Source: Acidiphilium iwatense
GTDB lineage: Bacteria; Pseudomonadota; Alphaproteobacteria; Acetobacterales; Acetobacteraceae
Reading direction: 5' to 3'
DNA length: 64,000 bases
Assembly (NCBI RefSeq): GCF_021556475.1
Contig: NZ_JAKGBZ010000013.1
Coordinates: 1-64,000, forward strand
Numbering within the stretch: position 1 is the stretch's first letter; every line of letters starts with the position of its first letter. The translations under genes and the position numbers were made by a program. This document shows, in pieces, positions 9,175 through 18,389 of this stretch. A model generated the notes under the pieces. That model was not told the DNA's origin, searched no databases, and was given only the letters and a program-made list of their open reading frames with translations.

Positions 9175-12003
9175 TCATTCGACGTAGTCGCAGCAGCGGC
9201 GGCACAATGTCGGATGGGCATGGTTCTCGCCAACCTCCGGTAGCACCTTCCAGCACCGTGCGCATTTGGTGCCTGGGGCGATTTCAACCCGAGGAACCGC
9301 GCGTAGCGGCGCCGAGTCGCCCGCACCCGCGGCATCCGACGAGATCAGCGTCTCAGCAGCGGAGGTAATGCAGAGTTCGGCCCAGTCGACGCTTTGCAGC
9401 GCATCCGGCGCGTCGATCGCGAGGGTGACGGTCAGCTTCGCCTGTAGGGACGATGCGATATCGCCATTGCGGCGGCTCTCCTCCAGTTGCATCGTCGCGA
9501 GCTTGCGGACCGCGCGCATCTCCGCCCATCCCGCATCCAGCCCATCATCGCGCCACTCCACCGGCACATCCGGGAAACTCTCCAAATGCACGCAGGCATC
9601 TTCGCCGAATCGCGCGCGCCACGCCTCGTCGGCGGTGAACGGCAGCACCGGCGCCAGCCATGTGGTCAGGCAGCGGTGCAAACTATCGAGCACGGTGCGG
9701 CATGCCCGCCGCGTGTCGCTCTGCCGGAGCATCCGCCCTTCGGCATCGAGCGCGACATCGCAATACAGCGCGTCCTTGCGGATGTCGAAGTAGAACGCCG
9801 AGAGATCGGTGTTGCAGAATTGGTGAATCGCCGGATACACCCCGGTCCAGTCATGGGTGTCGACTGCGCGCTTCACCATCGCGTCGAGTTCGGCGAGCCT
9901 GTGCAGCATCAACCGTTCAAGCTCCGGCATCGCGTCGCGCTCGACCCGCTCGGCGTCCGAAAAACCCTCCAGTCCTCCCAGAATCCAGCGCAGCGTATTC
10001 CTGATCCGCCGATAGAGATCGGCCTGCTGCTTCAGGATATCCTTGCCGATCCGTAAATCGTTGTGGATGTCCGAATTCATCACCCACAGGCGCAGAATAT
10101 CCGCGCCATACTGACCGATCACCTCCTGCGGCGCGGTGACATTGCCAAGCGATTTCGACATTTTCCGGCCCTGCTCATCGAGCACGAATCCATCCGTCAC
10201 GATCGCCTTGAACGGCGCCACCCCGCGCGTCCCCACCGCCTCTAACAAAGATGCCTGGAACCAGCCGCGATGCTGGTCCGACCCTTCGAGATACAGATCG
10301 GCCGGCCATCGCATCCCGCGCGCTTCCAGCACGAACGCATGGGTCGACCCGCTCTCGAACCAGACATCGACGATGTCGAACACCTGCTCGAAATCGTCGG
10401 GATTATAATCATTGCCAAGGAAATCCGCCGCCGGCCGCGCATACCACGCATCGGCGCCCTCGGTCGCGAAAATCGCGCGAGTCCGCGCGAACACCGCCGG
10501 GTCCGCCAGAACCTGTTTGTCGGATTTGCGCACGAAAATCGCGATCGGCACGCCCCAGGCGCGCTGGCGCGAAATGCACCAGTCCGGCCGGCTTTCCACC
10601 ATCGAGCGGATGCGGTTGCGCCCGGCTTCGGGCACGAACGCGGTGTTATCGATCGCGTCCAGCGCCTTGGCGCGGATTTGTTCGGCGCCGTCCATGCGGA
10701 TGAACCAGTTCGGCCGAGCCAGATAGATCAGCGGCGCCTTCGAGCGCCAGGAATGCGGATAGGAGTGCAGAAACTCCTCGCGCTTGAGCAAAGCGTCGGC
10801 GTCTTCGAGCGCCTTGCACACCGGATCGGCCGCCTTATACACATGGATGCCGGCAAACAGCGGCACATCCGGCGCATAGACGCCGTCATCCTGGACTGTC
10901 TCCGGCACATCGATCCCATGTTCGTGGCAGAGAAAAAAATCGTCCTCGCCATGCGCGGGCGCCATATGAACGAACCCGGTTCCGGCCTCCGTCGTGACGA
11001 AATCGCCAAGCAGCATAGGCACGTCGAAATCGTAGCCGCGCCCGCGCAGCGGATGCGCGCAAACCGAACCGGCAAGATCGTGTCCCTTTATCGTTCGCAA
11101 CGTCGAACGCGCGATGATACCCGCATCGGCGCTAAACGCGTCGAGCAGGGCGGCCGCGACGAACAGTGTGTCGCCGACGCGCGCCAGACTTGCATCCGCG
11201 ACCGCTTCGACCTTGACGAGGACGTAATCGATCTTCGGTCCCGCCGCGACCGCGCGATTGCCGGGAATCGTCCAGGGCGTCGTCGTCCAGATTACGATCG
11301 AACTGCCGGCGAAGTCGCCTAAAACCACCGGAAACCTTACCCAGATCGCGGTATCCGTCTTATCCTGATACTCGACCTCGGCCTCGGCCAGCGCGGTCTT
11401 TTCCACCGGGCTCCACAGCACCGGCCGCAACCCGCGATACAGCGCGCGATTCGCCGCGAATTTATGAATCTCCGCCGCGATCGCCGCCTCGGAGGCAAAA
11501 TCCATCGTCGCATAACGGTTCGCCCAGTCGCCCTCGACCCCGAGGCGCTTGAACTCGGCCGCCTGCACCTCCAGCCAGTGCGCGGCATAGGCGCGGCACT
11601 CGGCGCGGAAATCCAGCACCGGAACCTCGTCCTTGTCCTTCCCCGCCTTGCGATATCGCGCCTCGATCATCCATTCGATCGGCAGCCCGTGGCAGTCCCA
11701 GCCGGGCACGTAATTCGCATCGAACCCGGCCATCTGGCGCGCCCGGTTGATCACGTCCTTGTGGATCTTGTTCAGCGCGTGGCCGATATGCAGATTGCCG
11801 TTCGCATAGGGCGGCCCGTCATGCAGAATGAACGCCGTCCGCCCGGCCGAGATTTCGCGCAGCCGCCGGAACAGCCCCATCGCCTGCCAGCGCGCCAGCG
11901 CCTCGGGCTCGCGCTTGGGCAGATCGCCGCGCATCGGGAATTCGGTGCGCGGCAGAAATACGGTGGCGCGATAATCGCGTTGGGTCGTCTGGGCGTCGTT
12001 CAT
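9175..12003 (-). CDS. ileS: Isoleucyl-tRNA synthetase
   Basis: A 942-residue class I aminoacyl-tRNA synthetase that charges tRNA-Ile. The ATP-binding HIGH motif is in GNLHIGHALNK near residue 75, and KMSKS is in GRKMSKSLGN near residue 615. The connective editing domain lies between them. The C-terminal zinc finger is visible as CARCWKVLPE followed by LCRRC. Length matches bacterial IleS. It is upstream of lspA on the same strand, separated by the inverted-repeat element. The start follows a 250-base gap that holds a GC-rich palindrome at 12042-12065. Confidence 0.98.
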   Translation of the reverse strand: MNDAQTTQRDYRATVFLPRTEFPMRGDLPKREPEALARWQAMGLFRRLREISAGRTAFILHDGPPYANGNLHIGHALNKIHKDVINRARQMAGFDANYVPGWDCHGLPIEWMIEARYRKAGKDKDEVPVLDFRAECRAYAAHWLEVQAAEFKRLGVEGDWANRYATMDFASEAAIAAEIHKFAANRALYRGLRPVLWSPVEKTALAEAEVEYQDKTDTAIWVRFPVVLGDFAGSSIVIWTTTPWTIPGNRAVAAGPKIDYVLVKVEAVADASLARVGDTLFVAAALLDAFSADAGIIARSTLRTIKGHDLAGSVCAHPLRGRGYDFDVPMLLGDFVTTEAGTGFVHMAPAHGEDDFFLCHEHGIDVPETVQDDGVYAPDVPLFAGIHVYKAADPVCKALEDADALLKREEFLHSYPHSWRSKAPLIYLARPNWFIRMDGAEQIRAKALDAIDNTAFVPEAGRNRIRSMVESRPDWCISRQRAWGVPIAIFVRKSDKQVLADPAVFARTRAIFATEGADAWYARPAADFLGNDYNPDDFEQVFDIVDVWFESGSTHAFVLEARGMRWPADLYLEGSDQHRGWFQASLLEAVGTRGVAPFKAIVTDGFVLDEQGRKMSKSLGNVTAPQEVIGQYGADILRLWVMNSDIHNDLRIGKDILKQQADLYRRIRNTLRWILGGLEGFSDAERVERDAMPELERLMLHRLAELDAMVKRAVDTHDWTGVYPAIHQFCNTDLSAFYFDIRKDALYCDVALDAEGRMLRQSDTRRACRTVLDSLHRCLTTWLAPVLPFTADEAWRARFGEDACVHLESFPDVPVEWRDDGLDAGWAEMRAVRKLATMQLEESRRNGDIASSLQAKLTVTLAIDAPDALQSVDWAELCITSAAETLISSDAAGAGDSAPLRAVPRVEIAPGTKCARCWKVLPEVGENHAHPTLCRRCCDYVE

Positions 12004-12253: not shown

Positions 12254-13123
12254 ATGACCGCCGCAACCACAACCCGGCCGCGCCGCCACCCGTCGATCTT
12301 CGCTCCGCCCTGGCGCACGCCGGCCGGGCGGTTTTCCTGGCTGAAAACCGTCACGCTGGCGCTCTGCGTCGCGCCCGCGCCGTTCATCCTCTGGCAATGG
12401 GATACCGGCGATCTCGGCGGCCGTCCGGTGCATCACGCCATGCTGGAAACCGGATTCTGGGCAATCCGCTTCCTGATCCTCTGCCTCGCCGTCACCCCGG
12501 CGCGCTCCCTGTTCGACTGGCCGCGCGTGATGATGCTGCGCCGGATGCTCGGCCTCACCGCCGCGTTCTACACCTTCGCCCATATCATCCTCTACGCCGC
12601 CGACGAGGGTTTTGCCGCGGGCTTCGTGCTCGGCCAGATGGTCACCGTGTTCTACCTGATCCTCGGCACCATCGCGACGATCGGCTTCATCGCCCTGTCG
12701 CTGACCTCGACCGACGCGGCGATCGCGCGGCTCGGCCGCAACTGGAAAAGCCTGCACCGGCTGATCTACCCGATCGCCGCCTTGTCGCTCTGGCATTTCT
12801 TCCTGACCCAGAAGATCGACATCGGCATCGCCATGGTTCCCGCCGGCCTGTTCGTCTGGCTGATGCTCTGGCGCGCCACCCCCCATGCATTCCGCCGTTC
12901 GCTCGCGGGGCTGATCGCGCTCGCGGCGGGTGCCGTGGCGATCACCGCCTTCGGCGAGGCCGGGTGGTATGTGCTGAACTCCGGCATCGACCCGTGGCGC
13001 GTGCTCGCCGCCAATCTGTCCACCGCGCGGCCGACCGCGGCCATGTTCGTCGCCGCCGACCTCGCCTTCCTGATCGTCATCGTCGCGGCCCGGCGCACCC
13101 AGAAGCGTCTCGCTCGAAGCTGA
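12254..13123 (+). CDS. msrQ: MsrQ-like haem-binding membrane protein (ferric reductase-like domain)
   Basis: A 289-residue protein with about seven to eight hydrophobic helices and the ferric-reductase-like fold of MsrQ (YedZ). Histidines in helices, such as AHIILY and the pair in LHRLIYPIAALSLWHFF, are candidate haem b ligands. In the known system MsrQ passes electrons from quinol or a flavin reductase to the periplasmic methionine sulfoxide reductase MsrP. No msrP lies in the window. The next gene, 43 bases downstream on the same strand, begins the hydrogenase-4-related module, so an alternative electron partner is conceivable. The start was chosen at MTAATTTRP, the first ATG before the conserved part. 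Confidence 0.75.
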   Translation: MTAATTTRPRRHPSIFAPPWRTPAGRFSWLKTVTLALCVAPAPFILWQWDTGDLGGRPVHHAMLETGFWAIRFLILCLAVTPARSLFDWPRVMMLRRMLGLTAAFYTFAHIILYAADEGFAAGFVLGQMVTVFYLILGTIATIGFIALSLTSTDAAIARLGRNWKSLHRLIYPIAALSLWHFFLTQKIDIGIAMVPAGLFVWLMLWRATPHAFRRSLAGLIALAAGAVAITAFGEAGWYVLNSGIDPWRVLAANLSTARPTAAMFVAADLAFLIVIVAARRTQKRLARS

Positions 13124-13166: not shown

Positions 13167-14456
13167 ATGTCCCGCTCCAGCCTGAGACGACTCCTGACGC
13201 TGCCGGTCGCCGCCGCGATCGCGCTGATCGGCGCCTTGGCCTGTGTGGCGTTCATCCTGCTGCAGGCGCCCCCCATCACCGCCAGCGTCCCGGATCTCGG
13301 GATCTCCGGCACGGTCGGTTTCGCCATCTTTCCGGCGCGCGCCGCCATCCTGGCGCCGGTGCTGCTCGCCGGTGCCGCATCGCTCCTCGCCGCGATCGAC
13401 ATCGAAACCTCACCAGCCGGACGGGTGGGGCTGATCGTCCTCGTCGCCGTCACGACCCTCGCGATCCTGGCGCTGGACGCCTACGCCACCGCCTTCTTCG
13501 CCCTGCTGGCATTGCTGATCGCGGTGCGCGTCCGCGCCGCCGAAAGTTTCGCCCTGGCCGCGATCCCCGCCATCGCGATCGGCCTCGCCATCGCCGATCC
13601 GCCGCCCGATCCATTGCTCGTTCTTGCCGGCGCGATCGCCGCGGTGGCCGCGGGCTGGCGCGCCGCGACCACGCTCGACCTCGCCAGACTCGCCCGCGCC
13701 GTCGCCCTTGGTTTCACCGGGCTGGGATTCATCGCATTCGGCCTTGGATCGGATGGGGCGGCGCGTCTCTGCCTCGCCGCCAATGCGCTGACCGCCCCGC
13801 TTCTGGCGATCGCCGCCGCGATGATCTTCGAGGCTACCGGCACGCGTTCGCTCGACTGGCTGGGCGGGCTCGCGCGCGGCATGCCGCGCTTTTCGCTGCT
13901 GCTCCTCGCCGGTCTCGGTTTCGCCGCCCCGCTGCCGCCGGGGCCGGGCTTCGCCGCTTTCCTCGCTGTGCTGCGCCCGGCGATCATGGGAAACCCGATC
14001 GGTGCCGTGAGCGCGGTCGCTCTGGCGCTCTGGTTCGCCCTGATGGGCTTCGCCGCGATCCGTGCCTTCGGCCTCGCCTGCCTTGGCCGCCCGCGCAGCC
14101 TGCGCGCCGCCGCCGCCGAAGATGCGCCGCGCGCGACCATCACCGCGATGATAGTTCTCGCGCTGTCCGGGCTCGTCCTGGCGCTATTCGAATCAGCCGA
14201 AAATGCCTGGATTTGTCTCGTTCTGCTCGGGCTCGCCGCGCTGATCCGCCGCTTTGCGATCGTCTCCGGCCCGCTGGAGTCCGCCGAATTCGGCGGCGGC
14301 TTCGCCAAACCGCCCGCCTGGCTGCCGTTCGGCGACCCGGCGACCCAGATCACCGCCACCGGCTTCGCCGCCGCCTTCCGCACCGCACCGTGCCCCTGGA
14401 CGGCAAAATTGCACGGCGCCTGGGCCCGGCTGCGCGCCACGATCGCGGCCCGATGA
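13167..14456 (+). CDS. Hydrogenase-4 component B-like membrane protein (short, degenerate antiporter subunit)
   Basis: A 429-residue polytopic protein with about ten or more helices. The segment ATGTRSLDWLGGLARGMP (residues 223-240) and the C-terminal FGGGFAKPPAWLPFG match HyfB/HycC-type antiporter-like subunits, which are normally near 600-670 residues. The usual YSSxEN helix is replaced by a segment without charge around residues 178-188. The lysine of the NHxLFK motif is alanine at about position 210 and its histidine is asparagine at 206. Proton pumping by the canonical route is therefore unlikely. The gene starts the four-gene module and overlaps the next gene by four bases. Confidence 0.75.
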   Translation: MSRSSLRRLLTLPVAAAIALIGALACVAFILLQAPPITASVPDLGISGTVGFAIFPARAAILAPVLLAGAASLLAAIDIETSPAGRVGLIVLVAVTTLAILALDAYATAFFALLALLIAVRVRAAESFALAAIPAIAIGLAIADPPPDPLLVLAGAIAAVAAGWRAATTLDLARLARAVALGFTGLGFIAFGLGSDGAARLCLAANALTAPLLAIAAAMIFEATGTRSLDWLGGLARGMPRFSLLLLAGLGFAAPLPPGPGFAAFLAVLRPAIMGNPIGAVSAVALALWFALMGFAAIRAFGLACLGRPRSLRAAAAEDAPRATITAMIVLALSGLVLALFESAENAWICLVLLGLAALIRRFAIVSGPLESAEFGGGFAKPPAWLPFGDPATQITATGFAAAFRTAPCPWTAKLHGAWARLRATIAAR

Positions 14457-15835
14457 TCCTCGCCGCCCAGTTCTTTGCCGCGCTGATCGGCCTCGCCGCG
14501 ATGCTCGCGATGGCTTTCGCTCTCGAAGCGCTCACGCGATGGATCGCGGCGCGCCGCGCCGGAATCGCGCCCGCGCCGGCGGCTCAGATCGGTCACGATC
14601 TGGTCAAACTGCTGCGCAAGCGGCGGCTGCGTCCCGCCTTCGCCTCGCCGCTCTATTCCACATGGCCGATCCTCGCTTTCGCCGCGACCGGCGCGGCGGC
14701 TTGTATCCTTCCCGGTTTTGCCGATCATCTGATCACCCAGCCCTTGGCCCGTCTGCCTCTGCTCGTCGGACTTCTCGCATTGGGACGTGCCGCCCGCGTG
14801 CTCGCCGCGCTGGAATCGGGGGGGGGCGCGCGCGGCCGCGCCGCCGCCCAGGCGGCAACCGGCGCCTGCCTCGCCGAAGCCGTCTGGCTGATCGCCATGG
14901 CGGCACTCGCCGTCACCGCCCAGAGCCTGTCGATCAGCCGGATCGGTGCCGCCGCGCCGGGCGGGCCGCAAGTGCTGGTTCCCGCCGGGTTCGCAGCCCT
15001 GATCGCCGCGCGCGGCTTCCGCGATGACGCCGCCACCGACTATGCCGGGCCGGATCGCGCGATCTTCATCGCCGAGTCCATGCTGCGCCAGGTGGTGCTG
15101 CTCGCCGCGCTGATCGATGTGGCCGTCCCCTTCGGCATGGCGGATGCTAGGCTCATCCTGTCCTGGCCGCTCGGTCTCGCCATCTGGATCGCGAAACTGG
15201 TTGTTCTGCTCCTTGCCGCGACCCTCGCCGCCGACATCGCGCCGCGCCGGACCGCACGCCTTGCCTTGCCGCTCGCGTTCGTCGCACTGGCGATGGTTTT
15301 CGCCGACAACTTCTCCTGGGCCGGCCTGCTGATCGCGATCGGTGGCATCTTCGTCGTATTCGGCGTCGTTCGCCTCTGGCGGCGCGCGCCGCCCCTCGAA
15401 GCCGCGAGCTTCACCCAGGCGGGCGCGGCGTTGATCGGCTTCGGGCTCGGCGCTGCCGAGGCCGGGTGGCTGATTCTTGCCGGCATCGTCCTCGCCCGGC
15501 TCGCCGGGTTCCTCGCCGAACGCCACAAAACCGCGTTTGGGCGCCGTTGGATCGAGGCGGGATGCATGACGGCCCTGGCCGGTCTGCCGCCGTTCGGCCT
15601 GTTCGCCGGGGATTTCGCGGTGCTGCGTGCCGCCTTTGCCGCATCCCTCCCGTTCGGCATCTGTCTCACCCTGGTTCTCGCGATCTCGGCGATCCTGCTG
15701 ATCGCCCGCCTGTCGCCCGGCGCTGCGCCCCGGCAGCCGAAACATGCGCCCGCCGTGCTCGCGGCGGCGGCGCTGCTGCTCGCACTTCTCGTCGCGCTGG
15801 GGGTGGCACCTTCGCTGATCGGCGGTGCCGGATGA
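14453..15835 (+). CDS. Fusion of a HyfC/NuoH-like and a HyfF-like antiporter segment
   Basis: A 460-residue membrane protein. Residues 1-290 follow HyfC (NuoH-like): an early arginine-rich loop, QIGHDLVKLLRKRRLRP at 45-61, and the segment before VPFG at 225-228. The acidic quinone-loop motif of NuoH-type subunits (EGPLTEYSG in HyfC) is degraded to DDAATDYAGP at 191-200. Residues 300-460 resemble the C-terminal half of HyfF/NuoN-type subunits, with LAGLPPFGLFAGDF at 375-388. The fusion has no frameshift. Start and stop overlap both neighbours by ATGA, so translation is probably coupled. It probably forms the membrane core of the complex. Confidence 0.7.
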   Translation: MILAAQFFAALIGLAAMLAMAFALEALTRWIAARRAGIAPAPAAQIGHDLVKLLRKRRLRPAFASPLYSTWPILAFAATGAAACILPGFADHLITQPLARLPLLVGLLALGRAARVLAALESGGGARGRAAAQAATGACLAEAVWLIAMAALAVTAQSLSISRIGAAAPGGPQVLVPAGFAALIAARGFRDDAATDYAGPDRAIFIAESMLRQVVLLAALIDVAVPFGMADARLILSWPLGLAIWIAKLVVLLLAATLAADIAPRRTARLALPLAFVALAMVFADNFSWAGLLIAIGGIFVVFGVVRLWRRAPPLEAASFTQAGAALIGFGLGAAEAGWLILAGIVLARLAGFLAERHKTAFGRRWIEAGCMTALAGLPPFGLFAGDFAVLRAAFAASLPFGICLTLVLAISAILLIARLSPGAAPRQPKHAPAVLAAAALLLALLVALGVAPSLIGGAG

Positions 15836-17121
15836 CCGCCGATTTCGCCATCCTGATCGGCTCCGCCGCCACCGAGCCCGCATCCCCGGTCGCGTTGCGC
15901 GTGCTGCCGCCGGAGTCCTGGGCGCGTCTCGCCGCAGGCGACGCCACCGCGCGGTTCCTCGGCCTCTGGATCGCGCGCGATCGCGTCCACGCTTTGTTCG
16001 AGCACAATGGTTCTCCACTATTTCTGGCCTCACCTCTGGTCGAAAGGCGCTATGCCGCGCTCTCACCGGGTTGGACTCTCGCCGCCTGGTTCGAGCGCCT
16101 CGCCCACGACCTCACCGGCGCGATCGCCAACAACGCCGCCGATACGCGTCCGGCGATCCGCCACGGTGTGGCGGGAACCGATGCCGCGTGGCCACGCTTT
16201 ATCGAAACACCGGGTGAGGGGTTTTATCAGATCGGCCAGGGCCCGGTCTCCGGCCTGATCGCCACCCCGGCGCATCGCCGCTTCACCCTCGACGGCGCGA
16301 GGATCGCCCGGCTGGAGCACCGTCTCGGCTACGCGCATCGCGGCATCCTCGCCTTGATGCGCGGCAAGTCGCCACGCGCCGCCGCCCGCTTCGCCGCGCG
16401 CATCGCCGGCGGCGCGACGGTCGCCCACGCGCTCGCCTTCGCCCGTGCCGCCGAGGCGGCGAGCGGCACCACCGCTCCGCCGCGCGCCGAAACGTTGCGC
16501 GCGATCATGCTGAATATCGAACGGATTACCTCCGATCTCTCCGCTCTCGCCGCAACCGCCGAGGCTGCCGGCCACCTCCGGCGCGCCACCGTTCTGGGCC
16601 GCGTGCGGGCGGAGATCGCGGCGGCGCTGGCATTGGTCTTCGGCCATCGGCTGATGATGGATCTGGTGGTACCGGGCGGTCTCGCCGCCGATGCAAGACC
16701 GGACGAATTCCCGCGCCTGACCGCCGCGCTGGCAGCGGCATCGCGCGCGGTTCGCGGCATCGGCCGCGTCTCGGTGCGGCGCGATCTGCGCGGCGCGGCG
16801 CCGCTCGCGCTGGCCCGCGCCCGCTCGGCGATCAACCTCGCCGCAACCGCGCGCGACGCATTGGCCGCACTCCCCGAAGGCATCATCGCCCATCCACTGC
16901 CGGCGGCGACCGGCATGGCGATCGGCGCCGCAGCAAGTGCCACCGGCATGATCCATCATTGGGTCATGCTCGAAGCCGGCCAGATCGCCGATGTTTTCGT
17001 GATCGACCCGGCAACACGGCTGCTGCCCGCGCTGGAGGCCGCTTCGGTGGGTATGAATTTCGATGAATTTGCTTTGTTGTCAGAAATTTATGGGATTTCG
17101 TTCGGAGCAGTCGATCTATGA
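15832..17121 (+). CDS. HyfG/HycE-like large subunit without NiFe-site cysteines
   Basis: A 429-residue protein. Residues 1-120 correspond to the NuoC-like part. The rest corresponds to the NuoD/hydrogenase large-subunit part, recognisable by GEGFYQIGQGPVSG at 128-141 and LEHRLGYAHRGI at 161-172. Where [NiFe] enzymes have RICGxC the sequence is RIAGGA (190-195), so both N-terminal nickel-ligand cysteines are alanine. The C-terminus, DPATRLLPALE to ISFGAVDL, follows the Ehr-like pattern and lacks the DPCxxC of HycE. It can scarcely be a hydrogenase. It most likely forms the peripheral partner of the Fe-S subunit encoded next. Confidence 0.8.
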   Translation: MTADFAILIGSAATEPASPVALRVLPPESWARLAAGDATARFLGLWIARDRVHALFEHNGSPLFLASPLVERRYAALSPGWTLAAWFERLAHDLTGAIANNAADTRPAIRHGVAGTDAAWPRFIETPGEGFYQIGQGPVSGLIATPAHRRFTLDGARIARLEHRLGYAHRGILALMRGKSPRAAARFAARIAGGATVAHALAFARAAEAASGTTAPPRAETLRAIMLNIERITSDLSALAATAEAAGHLRRATVLGRVRAEIAAALALVFGHRLMMDLVVPGGLAADARPDEFPRLTAALAAASRAVRGIGRVSVRRDLRGAAPLALARARSAINLAATARDALAALPEGIIAHPLPAATGMAIGAAASATGMIHHWVMLEAGQIADVFVIDPATRLLPALEAASVGMNFDEFALLSEIYGISFGAVDL

Positions 17122-17639
17122 ACCCCGATCCCGACCCGGCCACGCCCGACTCGACGGTGCGGGTTCTCGCCGAACGCCTCGCCGCCTCCGGTCAGGCGCT
17201 GCTCGGCCGCAGCCTCGCCGTCCGCCACGTCGATGCAGGCAGCTGCGGCGGCTGCGAAATCGAATTGGCGGCGGTGCGCGTGCTGCGCGACGGACTTTCA
17301 CGCTCCGGGATCACCTTTACCGACGACCCGCGGGCGGCGGATGTGCTCCTGATCACCGGCGTCGCCACGACCAACCTCGCCGAGGCCGCACAGCGCACCC
17401 TGGCGGCGATGGCGCCGCCGCGCTTCGTCGTCGCGATGGGCGATTGCGCGGTGGATGGCGGAGTGTTCAAGGGCTCGGCGCCGGTTCTCGGCGGTGCGGA
17501 ACGCATCCTGCCGGTCGATCTGCTCATCGCCGGCTGCCCGCCGACGCCGCGTCAGATCATCGCCGGATTGCTCGCACTGCTCGAAGCCAACGCCGCCCCG
17601 GTCCGCAGAACGCCTCGACGGATCGAACCGAAAGCGTGA
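17118..17639 (+). CDS. HyfI/NuoB-like [4Fe-4S] small subunit
   Basis: A 173-residue NuoB-family protein. All four cluster ligands are present: C43 and C46 in SCGGCEIE, C110 in GDC, and C140 in GCPP. These bind the N2-type cluster at the quinone or nickel site. GGVFKGS and LPVDLLIAGCPPTP match HyfI closely. Its conservation contrasts with the eroded catalytic and pumping motifs of the three preceding genes. The start overlaps the large-subunit stop by ATGA. It is the last gene of the module and is followed by two hairpins. No ferredoxin-like HyfA or HyfH subunit is encoded nearby. Confidence 0.85.
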   Translation: MNPDPDPATPDSTVRVLAERLAASGQALLGRSLAVRHVDAGSCGGCEIELAAVRVLRDGLSRSGITFTDDPRAADVLLITGVATTNLAEAAQRTLAAMAPPRFVVAMGDCAVDGGVFKGSAPVLGGAERILPVDLLIAGCPPTPRQIIAGLLALLEANAAPVRRTPRRIEPKA

Positions 17640-17686: not shown

Positions 17687-17729
17687 ATGGCTTCTGGCTG
17701 GATTGCTGCGCGATTCAACCAGAAGCCAT
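17687..17729. promoter_or_regulatory. Second hairpin upstream of rnhB
   Basis: ATGGCTTCTGG at 17687-17697 and CCAGAAGCCAT at 17719-17729 make a perfect 11-bp stem with a 21-base loop. The right arm ends 9 bases before the chosen rnhB start and could occlude its ribosome-binding region. It could equally be a structural repeat. No poly-T follows. Confidence 0.4.
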
Positions 17730-17738
17730 ATTGATCTT

Positions 17739-18389
17739 ATGCCTGACTGCCGCCACGAAACCCGGATCGGCGGCGTGGTCGCCGGGGTGGACGAGGTGGG
17801 GCGCGGGCCGCTCGCCGGCCCCGTGGTGGCGGCGGCGGCGATCCTGCCGGACGTGCTGCCTGCAGGACTGGCCGCGCTGATCGACGATTCCAAGAAACTC
17901 TCCGCCGCCCAGCGCGTGCGTGCTCTGGCCGCGCTGATCGATTCTGGCGCGTTCGTCGCGCTGGGCGCCGCATCGGTCGCCGAAATCGCCCGCCTCAACA
18001 TCCTGCACGCGAGCCTGCTCGCGATGCGCCGGGCGGTCTCGCGGCTGAAATGCCGCCCGGATCACGTGCTGATCGACGGCCACATCGCGCCGTCGCTGCC
18101 GATGCCCTGCACCACGCTGATCGGCGGCGACGGTATTTCGCTGTCGATCGCGGCGGCTTCGATCGCGGCCAAAATCGCCAGGGACCGGCTGATGACGCGG
18201 CTGGATACCCGCTACCCCGGCTATTTCTGGGCGCGCAACGCCGGCTACGGCACGCCGGCACACCGCGCGGCGATCGCCTCGCTCGGCATCACCGTGCATC
18301 ACCGGCGCGGCTTCGGTCCCTTGCTGACCGAGGGCTTGCCCAGCAAGGCGGAAGCGATCGCGGCAAGCGATGCGGTGGCCAGCAGATAG
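17739..18389 (+). CDS. rnhB: Ribonuclease HII
   Basis: A 216-residue RNase HII that cleaves the RNA of RNA-DNA hybrids and single ribonucleotides in DNA. The motif [14 protein letters not shown] at the N-terminus holds the first catalytic Asp and Glu. Later acidic residues lie in LIDGH and near YPGY. The start at MPDCRHETR was preferred because the conserved domain begins shortly after it. The last 91 bases overlap the 3' end of the convergent MFS gene, an unusually long tail-to-tail overlap. The C-terminus after HRRGFGP is slightly extended. Confidence 0.95.

Follow-up and report, generated by a model that had tools for sequence, protein, structure and literature searches.

The energy-converting hydrogenase-related (Ehr) complex of Geobacter is encoded by six genes. 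As the relevant passages of two accounts describe them, Ehr complexes have a large subunit that lacks Ni- and Fe-coordinating residues (PMC6349859, PMC10284858); charge translocation is suspected (PMC6349859) because antiporter-like subunits are present (PMC6349859, PMC10284858), and the function is stated in one of them to be unknown (PMC10284858). For formate hydrogenlyase (FHL), the C-terminal part of HycC is described as ND3-like and the ND1-type loop of HycD as holding the E-channel glutamates, changes of E199/E201/E203 lowering in vivo H2 production by 99% (PMC9474812). In the account of MBS, three loops in the HyfB-, HyfG- and HyfC-type subunits link the redox site to the pump, and the small-subunit cluster has three cysteines in a shortened motif (PMC7684303). 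Here we analyse a compact cluster of four genes resembling such systems in a 64,000-nucleotide stretch of DNA from the acid-loving bacterium Acidiphilium iwatense (the window), which is the first 64 kb of the 100.6-kb contig G000:C35. We propose, with a probability of about 0.6, that the cluster encodes an Ehr-derived membrane iron-sulfur complex which would no longer couple redox change to proton movement.

Gene content of the four-gene cluster

Four open reading frames (ORFs) lie on the + strand at 13167-17639, each overlapping the next one by ATGA:

Gene A, 13167..14456, + strand: shortened HyfB/HycC-like antiporter-type subunit with an ND3-like C-terminal loop (429 aa; profiles, AlphaFold2 model)
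Gene B, 14453..15835, + strand: HyfC/HycD-like subunit and, fused to it, the C-terminal part of a HyfF-like one (460 aa; profiles, AlphaFold2 model)
Gene C, 15832..17121, + strand: HyfG-like large subunit without [NiFe] ligands, with HRLMMD and VAH motifs (429 aa; Pfam, profiles)
Gene D, 17118..17639, + strand: HyfI/NuoB-like small subunit with four cluster cysteines (173 aa; Pfam, profiles)

Pfam gives names to genes C and D only, as NuoD/[NiFe] large subunit (PF00374, 1.6e-10) and NuoB (PF01058, 8.3e-25), respectively. Among NCBIfam families, gene A matches hydrogenase 4 subunit B at 5.9e-15, far under the cut-off, a resemblance of HyfB/NuoL type, and gene B has a single weak match to NuoN (0.006, residues 371-414). 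Against solved structures, gene C was matched by HycE (8.6e-14) and gene D by MbhJ (1.1e-26) and HycG (2.6e-24). For assignment of the window genes, the best 80 of 553 related loci were retained (labelled L...), and HyfB, C, E, F, G and I profiles were built from the 41 loci among L043-L118 that have the six-gene order HyfB-C-E-F-G-I, such as L061 of Acidocella aromatica; all six-gene counts below are drawn from L043-L118. Gene A aligns with the second half of HyfB only, gene B reads as HyfC followed by the C-terminal end of HyfF, gene C is without HyfG positions ~296-376 and gene D is a complete HyfI. AlphaFold2 models, made as single chains for genes A and B only, agree with this: that of gene A (pLDDT 85.3) superposes on HycC (7z0s_C) with Z 31.8 and a root-mean-square deviation (rmsd) of 3.7 over 412 aligned residues, and residues 6-285 of gene B (pLDDT 85.8) on HycD (7z0t_D) with Z 28.0 and rmsd 2.5 over 279.

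Thus the reading frames, the profiles and the structure matches bear out the four overlapping HyfB-, HyfC-HyfF-, HyfG- and HyfI-like genes of a preliminary description made from the sequence alone, and the family searches returned the HyfB/NuoL, weak NuoN, NuoD/[NiFe] and NuoB types. Its statement that HyfE and the ferredoxin-type subunits HyfA/HyfH are missing is also correct at the locus: no profile match to HyfE was found in the cluster, and no ferredoxin motif CxxCxxCxxxC in the cluster ORFs or within 3 kb, the rest of the genome not having been searched for HyfA/HyfH. We infer that the four proteins form one complex and that gene D carries a [4Fe-4S] cluster.

Residues lost and retained

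By comparison with the six-gene sets, the losses derived here appear to be HyfE, the antiporter Lys/Glu residues, part of the acidic loop between transmembrane helices (TM) 5 and 6 of HyfC, and a segment of HyfG. The HyfB residues E80, K159, K190, K238, E247, K289 and E344 (profile numbering) show at least 90% conservation over the 41 six-gene loci. In the 12 HyfB-like proteins of the genus, K289 and E344, together with H285, align and are substituted or gapped; the other five were not found, and as the N-terminal part of gene A is mostly unalignable to HyfB, these would be lost rather than having been observed as substituted. All seven are substituted or gapped in 6/6 reduced loci from other lineages (L062, L083, L106, L111, L116, L118), whose HyfB aligns better than the genus proteins. 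The HyfC loop (IPTDNPAGHLELAMV in L061) misses 10-15 residues in all 11 aligned genus proteins and is shortened in 5/5 aligned reduced loci. It would correspond, by homology, to the E-channel loop of HycD/ND1 and to Loop 3 of MBS; all three MBS loops were placed on the window proteins in this way. Loop 2, carried by HyfG, has lost its Glu128 in ten of the 11 genus sequences. Further on, the HyfG stretch from profile position 296 to 376 is shorter by a net 56 residues in 10/11 and by 59 in the other.

Other parts have been retained. The four HyfI cysteines are present in 11/11 genus sequences and complete in 92 of the 93 HyfI examined, the remaining one being without its end. Six HyfG residues, namely H131 (the histidine of Loop 2), R173, H182, H255, R256 and D260, are found in 11/11 genus sequences. 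In gene A, the stretches DWLGG and LGRPRSLRAAAAED occur in 12/12, Loop 1 (HyfB TM15-16) has the near-invariant pattern GFA..P.W.PF.DP.T, and the ND3-like loop of HyfB is kept.

The [NiFe] ligands need to be read differently. The HyfG CxxC is absent in all 102 sequences (none near profile positions 165-190, none in the last 60 residues). No six-gene locus (0/41) has a ferredoxin ORF with two motifs at a distance of up to 3 kb, and 5/41 have one single-motif ferredoxin ORF, each inside the cluster. As the [NiFe] cysteines and HyfA/HyfH are missing from the six-gene sets too, their absence is not an erosion special to the window locus. The word 'eroded' in the preliminary description therefore applies to HyfG and the membrane arm, not to these two absences; likewise its contrast of an intact small subunit with three degraded partners stands for the four HyfI cysteines and the losses in genes A, B and C, but not for the [NiFe] cysteines. 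For comparison, 9 of 11 rows of Ehr1, a second Ehr set of the same genomes, retain all 22 residues of our coupling signature, and those of G123 and G125 have E220D together with gaps or truncation by the contig end.

Descent, distribution and constraint

On the evidence of the trees and of gene order, which also uphold the labels 'Ehr-like' and 'minimal' given earlier, the compact module descends from six-gene Ehr2 sets (HyfB-C-E-F-G-I), which are common in Acetobacteraceae and among which it is nested in the trees. In a FastTree of HyfG and HyfI (89 rows) the genus clade joins L106/L116/L062/L111/L118 with a parent support of 0.956; L039-L042, which duplicate L149, L155, L154 and L153, were removed, and only rows having both HyfG and HyfI were used, so L083 is not placed. 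In an IQ-TREE of HyfC, G, I and B (36 rows, of which nine, out of 11 available, are from the genus and 27 are other loci) the genus clade instead joins four Acidocella-type six-gene sets with an ultrafast bootstrap (UFBoot) of 100. With this placement the loss in the genus would be independent of that in the L106 lineage. The HyfG net loss also differs, being 81 residues in L106. However, approximately unbiased (AU) tests do not reject the FastTree grouping (p 0.054 for G+I and 0.17 for C+G+I; log-likelihood differences 27 and 29). Independent loss of pump parts in the genus and in other Acetobacteraceae lineages is thus favoured, not proven.

Across lineages, the 22-residue signature is complete in 49 of 100 rows, the remaining rows being truncated at contig ends, carrying substitutions or being reduced. 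Clear coupling loss with HyfI cysteines kept is seen in four six-gene Ehr2 loci (L045, L048, L079, L103); L072, for which no HyfB sequence is available, shows it in HyfC and HyfF and keeps its HyfI cysteines; and in L051 and L074 the coupling residues are partly changed. Somewhat against the odds, these cases might reflect several independent losses of Ehr2 pumping (in the genus; in L106/L111/L116/L118/L062; in L048/L079/L072; in L103; in L045) with the HyfI cluster kept, in which case the selected function would be a pump-independent one in redox or sensing and the four-gene form a pump-less class of complex I relatives.

At least part of the compact module is present in all 13 genomes of the genus sample (G000, G096, G120-G130), gene B being matched in 12. 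An intact fused four-gene set on one contig occurs in nine (G000, G130, G096, G128, G121, G122, G127, G129, G124); in G126 the module is split across two contigs, in G125 the contig ends inside the cluster, and in G123, where the genes number five, a HyfF-like protein of 341 aa (L158:6565-7590) is encoded separately and contains no lysine. G120 was considered as lacking the module, which was rejected since a 3.6-kb contig ends in a HyfI-like gene that adjoins rnhB. Recurrence across the genus, with gene B in 12/13 genomes and gene D beside rnhB in the thirteenth, is more than chance. Whether the same gene order recurs in Acetobacteraceae, as had been asked, has a divided answer: in 397 sampled family genomes, with the best four candidates per genome scored, full-length matches to the fused gene were found in 9, all from the window's genus, and an unfused four-gene B-C-G-I set is present in L106.

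The module is under purifying selection. Nei-Gojobori (NG86) ratios of nonsynonymous to synonymous substitution rates (dN/dS) over genus pairs are 0.19-0.38 for gene A, 0.28-0.40 for B, 0.16-0.27 for C and 0.09-0.22 for D, that is, at most 0.40 in every pair and lowest for gene D, where Ehr1 subunits have 0.00-0.23 and rnhB has 0.16-0.23 (for NG86 and YN00 alike, the G123-G125 pair covers gene A only and the G124-G126 pair is without gene B). There is no internal stop in the 1491 codons of genes A-D, where neutral simulation at 0.3-1.0 substitutions per site (60 runs per setting) gave at least one stop in each run and means of 5-25. Best matches to gene B in 12 genus genomes are stop-free and the frames of the other genes are open. 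A pseudogene was rejected on the dN/dS, the open frames and the retention in 13/13 genomes, in keeping with the earlier judgement; disabling mutations across relatives, named there as evidence of decay, were not seen in the genus matches to gene B.

For the G000-G130 pair, protein identity in the compact module is 53-75% with dS of 0.85-1.25, values near 1 being close to saturation, as against 77-92% and 0.55-0.82 for Ehr1. Towards six other Ehr1-bearing genus genomes, gene D shows 59-74% identity (Ehr1 HyfI 68-76%) and gene B 37-46% (Ehr1 HyfC 80-85%).

Two neighbouring genes are not part of the module:

12254..13123, + strand: MsrQ-like gene (111 bits against an MsrQ cut-off of 130; start uncertain, the ORF opens at 12002)
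17703..18389, + strand: rnhB, ribonuclease HII (NF000595, 1e-63, above cut-off; start codon uncertain)

The rnhB gene is directly downstream in 12 genomes, which are all those whose contig extends there. The MsrQ-like gene, 43 bp upstream of gene A on the same strand, is single-copy in the genome and varies in position within the genus. As it lies beside the module in 7 genus genomes and elsewhere in four (G123, G124, G125, G129), it was treated as a neighbour and rejected as a functional partner; none was found in G120 and G126.

Some further observations concern the related gene sets. A third Ehr-like set in G000:C124 (L146:3147-10561) has the order C-E-F-G-I-B, a HyfG without CxxC and most pump residues kept. 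Two separate trios of Proton_antipo_M genes on G000:C66 and C67 suggest two complex I clusters in this genome. In G123, Ehr1 HyfB is spread over two overlapping frames (L164:5028-6990), from a frameshift or an assembly error. For the G124-G129 pair, dS is 0.16-0.24 for genes A-D, 0.14 for rnhB and 0.02-0.05 for Ehr1; this several-fold gap may hint at different histories of the compact locus and Ehr1, or at recombination.

Possible function and comparison with known systems

In the reading we prefer, a HyfI-HyfG module would be docked on the shortened HyfB and HyfC/HyfF anchors, a predicted donor would pass electrons onto the gene D cluster, and the module would serve as an uncoupled electron relay or a redox sensor at the membrane. 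The distinct function suggested earlier is, as we judge, likely; in the literature searched, no described function for a four-gene or pump-less Ehr was found, nor a recognised family with one for this exact set.

Several results weigh against this reading. Conserved positions, DR and RASG-D-R, fall in the lost HyfG segment, a loss that argues against gene C being a normal catalytic large subunit. No neighbour gene is shared by most of 52 loci (46 Ehr2, five Ehr1 and L146), the commonest neighbour families reaching 14/52, so that the neighbourhood offers no functional partner. YN00 estimates of dN/dS go up to 0.52 (gene B, G124-G129). Relative to Ehr1, dN/dS is 4-7 times that of HyfC for gene B, 1.0-2.7 times that of HyfB for gene A and 1.1-1.9 times that of HyfG for gene C, against 0.5-1.9 times that of HyfI for gene D; these ratios are rough, as dS is unequal between loci of one genome pair. 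The relaxed constraint on the membrane parts as compared to the intact Ehr1 paralogue is nevertheless real. Finally, predicted helices or helix ends of gene B keep E/D121, D/E201, R202, K248, R349 and D387 in 9/9 fused sequences, which leaves room for some proton transfer.

The last point would be explained if the complex were still energy-converting, through a residual or new ion path in gene B. K248, R349 and D387 lie in its helices, D387 where HyfF has its TM12 Glu, but the eight ionizable residues of gene A that are invariant in 12 sequences include none in a long helix (0/8) and the HyfC acidic loop is shortened, so we consider such a path improbable. We give equally little credence to slow decay, in which a disappearing complex would have its frames held open by weak selection and G+C-rich sequence: a subunit, residues and segments have indeed been lost and the membrane subunits are less constrained than Ehr1, yet the retention, the open frames and an NG86 range that can be set beside that of rnhB do not fit it, and the constraint on gene D is much like that on Ehr1 HyfI. 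Alternatively, the compact subunits may act on the six-gene Ehr1 complex as an accessory or regulatory module, joining, tuning or inhibiting it. Ehr1, whole or in part, co-occurs with at least part of the module in 13/13 genus genomes (11 loci by place; G121 and G120 by search), and the conserved parts, HyfI and the ND3-like loop, are interface parts by homology. But all 13 genomes are of one genus and the co-occurrence may reflect one event, the two sets are far apart or on separate contigs, and the compact set comes from Ehr2, which makes its own six-gene sets in other genera; this role is therefore unlikely.

If the uncoupled membrane complex that we prefer is correct, the series from intact six-gene to four-gene, apparently pump-less sets would separate the redox core from the pump, the core retained by selection being the HyfI cluster, the ND3-like HyfB loop and the His/Arg/Asp-rich part of HyfG. 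The compact module would then be a small, tractable target for Ehr function and a test of coupling-loop loss in complex I relatives, and may help to show what the poorly understood Ehr relatives do.

With the complex I core (NuoB, NuoD, NuoH, NuoL) the module shares homologous subunits, but it has no NADH module in the cluster, has CxxC in place of adjacent cysteines, a shortened ND1 loop, and pumping residues that were not found. With FHL of E. coli (HycC, HycD, HycE, HycG) it shares the folds of genes A and B and sequence similarity of C and D. It differs in having neither the [NiFe] site nor a clustered ferredoxin-type subunit and in its shortened E-channel loop; of the traits of formate hydrogenlyase and hydrogenase 4, neither the [NiFe] cysteines nor HyfA/HyfH were found at the cluster. 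Pyrococcus MBS/MBH belongs to the same complex I superfamily and Loop 1 (HyfB TM15-16) is conserved, while in the window module Loop 3 is shortened and no ferredoxin-type subunit is clustered. Gene D aligns ungapped to MbhJ, of the four-cysteine type, over the first cysteine pair, and MbsJ is matched only from residue 43; of a relay cluster held fully by cysteines and a catalytic one with three cysteines as in MBS, the alignment would better suit the former, and MBS-like catalysis at the gene D cluster, though conceivable, is not supported.

The closest likeness is to the six-gene Ehr of Acetobacteraceae (e.g. L061), with shared descent, the order B-C-(E-F)-G-I, the absence of [NiFe] cysteines, the four HyfI cysteines and HRLMMD. 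Gene C, like the Ehr large subunit, is without Ni/Fe ligands. The window module differs in that it has not six genes with HyfE and separate HyfC and HyfF, but four, with HyfE missing, HyfF reduced and fused to HyfC, and HyfB and HyfG shortened. Where antiporter-like subunits fit for charge translocation are a trait of Ehr, here the fold is kept, the Glu/Lys residues were not found and the HyfC loop is shortened; on these grounds we name the module Ehr-derived rather than an energy-converting Ehr.

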